Origin: Caldanaerobius polysaccharolyticus DSM 13641
GTDB lineage: Bacteria; Bacillota; Thermoanaerobacteria; Thermoanaerobacterales; Caldanaerobiaceae
Direction of reading: 5' to 3'
Assembly (NCBI RefSeq): GCF_000427425.1
Contig: NZ_KE386495.1
Location: 733,072 to 797,071 of the forward strand
Length of the DNA: 64,000 nt
The translations under genes were made by a program, and so were the position numbers. The notes under the pieces are model-generated. The model was given only the letters and a program-made list of their open reading frames with translations, did not search any database and was not told the origin of the DNA. The first letter of the stretch is position 1, and every line of letters starts with the position of its first letter. Shown one piece after another: positions 17,822 to 20,131 of the stretch.

Positions 17822-19063
17822 ATGAGCAATAGAGTGGTAATAACCGGTATAGGTTGTGTTACCCCGATAGGCATTGGAAAAGAAGCGTATTGGAATGCAT
17901 TGAAATCCGGTAAGTCCGGTATCGGTCCTATAACGAAATTCGATGCCTCTGAGTATCCTACAAGGATCGCGGCGGAAGTGAAGGATTTCAATCCCATGGA
18001 TTTTATAGAGAAAAAAGAAGCCAAGCGAATGGATAGATACACCCATTTTGCTATAGCGTCTGCCAAGATGGCTATTGAAGATGCCGGATTGGATCTGGAT
18101 ACTGTGGACAAAAATCGCTTCGGTGTTATACTAGGGTCTGGCATAGGCGGTATAGAGACGTTTGAAGAGCAGTTTAGGGTTATGATGGAAAAAGGCCCAG
18201 GTAGGGTAAGCCCATTTTTTATACCCATGATGATATCCAATATGGCTGCAGGACAGATAGCTATAACCTTTGGCGCTAAGGGACCTAATGAGACAACTGT
18301 AAGCGCGTGTGCTTCCAGCACCAATGCCATAGGAGATGCTTTTAAGCTTATACAGAGCGGAAGAGCCGATGTGGTGCTGGCTGGGGGTTCAGAAGCGTCT
18401 ATAACGCCCATGGCGCTGGCAGGCTTTTGTTCTCTTAAAGCGCTGTCAACCAATAATGAGAATTACCATGAAGCCAGCAGGCCTTTTGACAAAAATCGCG
18501 ATGGATTTGTCATGGGAGAAGGTGCCGGCATAGTGCTACTTGAGAGGATGGACAAAGCACTGGAAAGAGGCGCCAAGATATACGCTGAGATAGTGGGTTA
18601 TGGATCCACCTGTGATGCATACCATATAACGGCACCGGCCCCAGAGGGTGAGGGAGCCGCCAGGGCGATGGCTGAAGCTATAGCAGATGCAGGGATAAGA
18701 CCTGAGGATATCGATTATATTAATGCCCATGGCACGTCTACGGATTACAATGACAAGTACGAGACCATGGCTATAAAGACGGTGTTTGGGGAGCACGCTT
18801 ATAAATTAGCCATAAGCTCTACCAAGTCCATGACAGGACATCTGTTAGGAGCAGCTGGTGCTATTGAGGCCATTGCGTGCTTGTTGGCCATAGATCAAGG
18901 TTTTATACACCCGACTATAAATTTGCGTACGCCTGATCCTGAGTGCGATTTAAATTACGTTCCCAACGTCGGTATAGAGAAAGACGTGAAGTACGCGCTG
19001 TCCAATTCCTTTGGATTTGGAGGTCAGAATGCGTGCATAATATTCAAGAAGTACTGCGAGTGA
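17822..19063 (+). CDS. fabF: Beta-ketoacyl-ACP synthase II (FabF)
   Basis: FabF performs the chain-elongating condensations. The catalytic Cys lies in [10 protein letters not shown] near residue 163. His is in [11 protein letters not shown] near 303, and a second His in [15 protein letters not shown] near 339. The 413-aa length is standard. The ATG at 17822 is preferred over a GTG three codons upstream because that GTG is part of the ribosome binding site TTGAGGTGA. In related genomes rnc usually follows fabF; here a broken radical-SAM gene starts five bases later. Confidence 0.96.
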
Positions 19064-19067
19064 TCTT

Positions 19068-20131
19068 ATGATAATACCTATATTTGTCCCTCATAGAGGT
19101 TGCCCCCATAATTGCGTCTTTTGCGATCAAAAGAAGATATCAGGTCAGGATGAGGTCGTTACCCCTGATTATGTTAAAAAAAAATTGAAGATCACTTAAA
19201 AACAGCTCATGGACAGCCTGTAATGGTGGCCTTTTACGGCGGCAGCTTTACGGCGATACCTGTAGAAGTCCAGAATAGTTTGATGGATGCGGTAAAGCCC
19301 TATATGCAAAGGGGCAAAGTGACGGGTATTAAGTTGTCTACGAGACCTGACTGCATTGACAGGCACATACTTGATAACCTCAAATCCCACGGTGTAAAGG
19401 AGATAGAGCTAGGGGTACAGTCCATGGATGATGAGGTGCTGTCGCTGGCGGAGAGAGGCCATACGTCGGACGACGTAAGGAAGGCTGCGAGTTTGATAAA
19501 GCCATATGGCTTTAAATTGGGGCTTCAGATGATGGTAGGTTTGCCTGGTGACACCAAAGCTAAAGATATGTATACAGCAGTAGAGCTCATAAGGATGAAA
19601 CCTGACTACGTGAGGATTTACCCCACCCTTGTTATAAGAGGTACTTCTCTAGAAGAGATGTATAAAAAGGGCCTTTACGTTGCTTTGAACCTTAAAGAGG
19701 CTGTGGATATATGCAGCGATCTGTTGCTGATGTTTTCACTTTACGATGTGCCGATCGTAAGGGTGGGGTTGCAGCCTACGGAGGAAATCAACGAAAAAGG
19801 CGACGTGGTGGCAGGGCCTTTTCACCCGGCGTTCAGACAGGTGGTAGAGGCCAAAATAGCGTGGGATATGATGTCGTATGCCTATAGGTGTTTGGGTGGA
19901 AACCATTTGACATTGGTGGTTAATCCCAGGGATTTGTCCAATGTGGTAGGGGTTAAAAAGTCCAACGTATTGAAGTTTTGCTCTGAGTATGGAGTGACTG
20001 TCGAAGTAAAAGGAGAACAGCAGGTGGAAAGGGATACGATAATATTTATAACAGAAAAGGGAAAGTATAAATTGAGCAAAAAAGAATATGCAAAAAGCAG
20101 GAATTTACAAGTGCATGTAGAATATAAATAG
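19068..20131 (+). pseudogene. Radical SAM protein of the ELP3-like family, split by a frameshift in a run of nine A
   Basis: An ATG at 19068 opens a frame coding MIIPIFVPHRGCPHNCVFC, with the CxxxCxxC cluster motif of radical SAM enzymes. That frame stops at about 19197. The rest of the enzyme continues in another frame from the A run at 19176-19184 to 20131, including FYGGSFTAIP, STRPDCID, ELGVQSMDDEVL, GLQMMVGLPGDT and a C-terminal domain. With ten A instead of nine, the two parts join as VKKKIEDHLK, the expected sequence. It may be a true mutation, a sequencing or assembly indel, or slippage-corrected expression. ELP3-like radical SAM proteins sit before smc in several Clostridia; the substrate is unknown. 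Confidence 0.8.

Follow-up and report, generated by a model that had tools for sequence, protein, structure and literature searches.

A radical SAM enzyme gene split at a conserved run of nine adenines: probable frame restoration by RNA polymerase slippage

The radical SAM gene at 19068–20131 (forward strand) of the window, i.e., the whole 64-kb stretch of DNA that was analyzed, is broken into two reading frames that meet at a tract of nine adenines (A9). Based on sequence comparison, we propose that the two frames encode one radical SAM enzyme and are not a pseudogene, and that the frame is probably set by slippage of RNA polymerase at the A9 tract, which is conserved in a second species.

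Results

Architecture of the split gene

The features of the gene are as follows.

19068–19199, forward strand: zero-frame ORF (43 aa) with CxxxCxxC (C12, C16, and C19) and a TAA just beyond the A tract
19176–19184, forward strand: putative A9 slippage tract, codons V-AAA-AAA-AAA, identical in the sister genome (G001)
19178–20131, forward strand: −1 frame of 317 open codons with the remaining radical SAM barrel and Radical_SAM_C
19068–20131, forward strand: whole gene, a predicted 354-aa enzyme if the transcript gains one A or the ribosome shifts back by one base

The zero frame starts with ATG at 19068 and runs for 43 codons, including C-P-H-N-C-V-F-C, to the stop codon TAA at 19197–19199. 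The −1 frame is closed by TAA at 19175–19177, is open from 19178, and ends at TAG (20129–20131), and its ATG-started ORF begins at 19223. The two frames overlap only at 19178–19196, which corresponds to the tract and four codons beyond. One extra A gives the junction V-K-K-K-I, whose V-xxx-I spacing matches that of intact relatives, and the length of 354 aa results from 36 codons before the tract, three lysines, and 315 codons after it. Unslipped reading stops at the fifth codon past the tract (TAA), and one A fewer leads to an immediate stop (TGA).

In the Pfam search, the first piece matched Radical_SAM (PF04055) at model positions 2–38 (27.6 bits, just below the cut-off of 29.5), and the second piece matched PF04055 at positions 49–157 (48.5 bits) and Radical_SAM_C, both above the cut-off. 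Taken together, the pieces have the CxxxCxxC motif and barrel of the radical SAM superfamily. No further damage was found in the second piece, whose frame runs unbroken and which has all 17 residues that do not vary among the 61 rows of a family alignment (the piece itself being one of the rows). The sequence and the Pfam split confirm the original prediction that the CxxxCxxC part and the rest of the enzyme lie in two frames joined at A9; its claims that one added A restores a continuous protein and that the remainder is undamaged agree with the spacing in the intact relatives and with the unbroken second piece, respectively.

Gene fission into two proteins was rejected. Of the radical SAM domain, the first piece covers just the beginning, including the cluster motif, which is absent from the second piece, and inspection by eye revealed no ribosome-binding site ahead of the ATG at 19223. 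Within the window, no A or T run other than A9 reaches nine bases, and seven of the eight runs of eight A/T are located inside one open frame of 120–633 codons.

Conservation of the break in the sister genome

The host genome (G000) was compared with the one other genome of the genus, G001, in which the same A9 is found at the same codon and with the same frame relation. The genes share 71.8% identity at the DNA level and 68–69% at the protein level. Downstream of the tract, 214 of 315 residues are identical (dS 1.89, dN 0.223, and dN/dS 0.118), and upstream of it, 32 of 36 are identical with a dN/dS of 0.115; these values come from a simple Nei–Gojobori count and are rough because dS is near saturation. 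The identities at the three codon positions of the downstream −1 frame (0.775/0.835/0.495) follow the pattern of a translated frame. As judged from these substitutions, strong purifying selection acts on both halves of the gene, at a dN/dS of about 0.12. The A9 falls in a 19-base identical block, which is not exceptional by itself because it is only the fourth longest in the gene; what counts is the shared break and frame.

A stop after 43 codons, in a gene that other members of the order lack or carry in broken form, is what recent inactivation to a pseudogene would leave, but this reading is almost certainly wrong, since the break is shared at a dS of about 1.9, close to saturation, and dN/dS is about 0.12 on both sides. 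The shared A9 split and the purifying selection, together with the in-frame state of the other in-gene runs of G000 (see below), make both a recent knock-out and a base-calling error unlikely. Among the three options offered in the original prediction, slippage yielding functional protein therefore fits, whereas very recent inactivation is disfavored by the age of the break and base-calling error by the same tract and frame in the divergent G001 and by those runs.

Reliability of homopolymer runs in the two genomes

The distinct runs of at least nine A/T in G000 number 41 or more, as counted from 100 of 110 positions, and the 40 besides A9 were examined. Eight of them are in-gene runs, each in a Pfam-matching open frame, and all eight, including an A10 inside a YabG-type gene, continue in frame; three are within 30 codons of a gene end, a position at which a shift might do little harm. 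As judged from open-frame extents, no second split gene was apparent among the 40 runs. In G001, 19 of at least 37 distinct runs were examined, and five of these sit deep within long open frames, which continue across them.

An A11 on contig C1 of G001 (about 101,293–101,306) splits larC into LarC1 and LarC2 frames. The larC gene is expressed by frameshifting in Lactobacillus, and the split in G001 may reflect either recoding or faulty assembly; it weighs against full trust in this genome. G000 carries a dispersed repeat, in which an A/T run lies between short conserved flanks, GAATATTCnCCG-Tn-cAGAAT. Among the 16 copies seen, ten have exactly 13 bases in the run and the others have 10 to 14.

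If the true tract were A10 in both genomes, the gene would be an ordinary one and the split a sequencing error. Reads by 454, Ion Torrent, and long-read methods fail at long A runs, two other relatives with A8 shifts (described below) come from Ion Torrent or from 454 plus Illumina, larC of G001 is likewise split, and the run lengths of 10 to 14 in the G000 repeat copies could be natural or erroneous. However, an identical miscall would be required twice, and longer runs are called in G000, namely the in-frame A10 of the yabG-like gene and the 13-base run of ten of the 16 repeat copies. With all eight other in-gene runs in frame, we regard a sequencing error as improbable.

Occurrence of the split among orthologues

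In the order of the host, which includes Thermoanaerobacter, 23 of 24 genomes gave an orthologue-grade match (E at most 2.2e-87); in G020 an orthologue was not found, the best match being 8.0e-15. Twenty orthologues run in one frame from query residue 1–3, and the N-terminal split is confined to G000 and G001 of one genus among the 24 genomes. The gene of G015 is interrupted around residue 230, at an A7 that corresponds to an A8 in a close relative. In a further relative, G077, the gene is in pieces with stops.

Replication is prone to slip at A9/A10 tracts. Phase variation, with the tract flipping between A9 and A10 and both isolates caught in the off state, or parallel recent loss of one A would exploit this property, which has been discussed for such tracts (PMC1088944, excerpt), and would suit a gene that is missing or broken in some relatives. 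Both versions are very improbable, as the same state is required twice without a trace of decay. Phase variation is further at odds with an enzyme that seems cytoplasmic and housekeeping-like, unlike a surface antigen, and the polymerase could slip at A9 anyway.

Among 155 sampled genomes of the order of Fervidicella, 150 gave an orthologue-grade match (E at most 7.6e-60), and three of these matches start after residue 20, i.e., those of Fervidicella, Thermobrachium, and G214. The last was ruled out as a split gene; it is intact with an insertion. In the class, 102 of 167 sampled genomes gave such a match (E at most 1.1e-56), and only that of Fervidicella starts after residue 8. Six genomes are common to the two samples. 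Matches crossing one in-frame stop were found in four genomes of the order sample (G110, G126, G193, and G204) and in eight of the class sample.

In Fervidicella metallireducens and Thermobrachium celere, the frame is shifted at an A8 in C-N-Q-K-K, just past CxxxCxxC. An in-frame A9 is present at this C-N-Q-K-K(-I) site in 8 of 17 genomes of their family, and in the tree T. celere groups with three intact relatives, apart from Fervidicella. The Fervidicella genome was read by Ion Torrent (PMC4007986, excerpt) and that of Thermobrachium by 454 plus Illumina (PMC3715667). Given these platforms, the A8 shifts are leads only and are not relied on here. When A8 runs were scored by script, 30 in each assembly, none was judged to split a gene; 22 and 19 of the runs, respectively, are in a long open frame and the remainder in no such frame. 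Selection for the A tract across the whole family is not claimed.

Protein family

The best NCBIfam matches of the second piece were Elp3 (TIGR01211, 112.6 bits) and MnmL/YtqA (TIGR01212, 99.6 bits), both below the curated cut-offs (350 and 180, respectively). Two intact orthologues also scored under them (117.5/94.1 and 115/89.2 bits for TIGR01211/TIGR01212). This gene is itself the best MnmL candidate in the G000 genome (96% complete), at 100.4 bits against the cut-off of 180. For an orthologue from Caloramator quimbayensis, modeled with a mean pLDDT of 93.1, Elp3 chains occupied the top 11 places among the fold matches, with TM-scores by query of 0.53–0.65. The predicted product is a radical SAM enzyme of an Elp3/MnmL-like family, below both named-family cut-offs. 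It resembles Elp3 and MnmL/YtqA in the top NCBIfam matches and, through the orthologue model, in the Elp3 fold, but differs from them in its scores and in that no GNAT family is among its Pfam matches.

Discussion

Mechanism of frame restoration

Here, we propose a mechanism for the expression of the gene. When RNA polymerase copies the A9, it would slip back and add one A in a fraction of the transcripts, which would be read through as V-K-K-K-I to give the 354-aa enzyme. Unslipped transcripts would end at the TAA in the fifth codon past the tract, and transcripts short of one A at the immediate TGA. We infer all three elements of this proposal: that the full-length product is made, that slipping is by the polymerase and not by the ribosome, and the slipping fraction. 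The uninterrupted tract, the direction of the insertion, and the lack of ribosomal stimulators all agree with polymerase slippage. A slippage-prone run of nine A or T lies at the junction of two ORFs, as in the criteria for slippage genes in PMC1088944 (excerpt); for a further criterion of that kind, the pair considered was G000 and G001, at 68–69% protein identity. Insertions prevail when polymerase slips in A/T runs (PMC5574713, excerpt). In the same excerpt, a survey of Escherichia coli and Buchnera detected no transcription error restoring a frame, which indicates that frame rescue by transcription need not be common. Against the slippage reading, only two genomes carry the site, and the gene is dispensable in some relatives (none found in G020, pieces in G077, and broken in G015). 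In addition, A AAA AAA is also the heptamer of −1 ribosomal frameshifting, so the sequence is compatible with either mechanism.

In the ribosomal alternative, a programmed −1 slip on A AAA AAA in the tract would give the same 354-aa protein from unedited mRNA. The slippery heptamer is in the right phase, the frames overlap only at or just past the tract, and the conserved split and the selection fit equally well. However, the stimulators were not seen. RNA folding around the tract was no better than that of shuffled sequences in both species (z 0.55, 0.00, 1.24, and 1.12, with pseudoknots outside the model), and by eye no Shine–Dalgarno-like motif was present within about 15 bases upstream of the tract in G000 and G001. 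The sequence AGGATGAGG lies some 20 bases upstream in G000 and is not conserved in G001. Moreover, the heptamer needs no nine unbroken A, though AAG accounts for 45% of the lysine codons in 11 neighboring genes. Because neither a stem–loop nor a nearby Shine–Dalgarno stimulator was found, ribosomal frameshifting is rather unlikely and ranks as our second choice after polymerase slippage.

Comparison with known systems

The −1 ribosomal frameshifting of the E. coli dnaX type uses an A AAA AAx heptamer of lysine codons. The present gene shares the heptamer but differs in that no nearby Shine–Dalgarno or stem–loop stimulators were found. As to polymerase slippage, dnaX of Thermus thermophilus slips at nine A/T (PMC5009743, excerpt) and resembles our case as a thermophile gene with a nine-base A/T tract, added A's, and nearby stops in the other frames. 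There, slippage leads to the shorter product and the long form is encoded in one ORF, whereas here it would be required for any enzyme; we infer here what has been demonstrated in Thermus. In Buchnera and Blochmannia, frameshifted genes are thought to be corrected by slippage (PMC3017870, excerpt). Those are also cellular genes with one homopolymer indel, some of them conserved between species without decay. They belong to low-GC endosymbionts with reduced genomes, in contrast to the present 2.5-Mb genome with a window of about 44% GC, in which the 40 further runs of at least nine A/T that were examined leave no gene split. In IS elements, an A run joins two ORFs (PMC1088944, excerpt), and slippage at an A7 of IS1447 was reported in the thermophilic clostridium Clostridium thermocellum (PMC6211511, excerpt). 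These are transposase fusions of mobile elements, whereas ours is a chromosomal enzyme gene between fabF and spoVS–smc. No report of slippage in this gene family was found in the literature searched, outside which most subscription journals lie. The term "radical SAM" is absent from the main text of a 2013 survey of prokaryotic frame transitions, as far as excerpted (PMC3711429), and from the examined part of a 2016 review (PMC5009743).

Significance

Slippage-dependent genes are known in kind; this gene and place are new. On the comparative evidence, the apparent pseudogene is most likely a living gene dependent on slippage. If so, a free-living thermophile has long kept a chromosomal enzyme gene in a form fully expressible only via slippage, the cases compared being those of dnaX, of mobile elements, and of endosymbionts with reduced genomes. 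Annotation software would tend to score it as a pseudogene, and such genes may therefore be undercounted. Two species, 20 intact orthologues of the same order, and a short tract offer a clean system to ask whether the arrangement is regulation or a neutral trap.

Named members of the Elp3/MnmL families modify tRNA, and Elp3 acts at the wobble uridine. The shift could then be a feedback switch, in which the enzyme modifies tRNA-Lys(UUU) and thereby tunes its own synthesis: the tract consists of three AAA codons, which are read by this tRNA, and a lack of the enzyme would alter slipping at its own AAA run. This idea is highly speculative and very probably wrong. Were it true, Thermobrachium and Fervidicella, whose A8 shifts fall at two further lysine codons of this gene, would have arrived at the same control independently.

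Genomic setting

The window spans positions 733072–797071 of contig C3 in G000, and its gene order is fabH-fabK-fabD-fabG-acpP-fabF, the radical SAM gene, spoVS, smc, ftsY, ylxM, and ffh, with names read from the translations and SpoVS confirmed by Pfam. From fabD onward, G001 has the same order, without rnc. The rnc gene is likewise absent from this place in G000 (window 19063–19068), and in Fervidicella and Thermobrachium, as read from the translations, it sits between fabF and the radical SAM gene.
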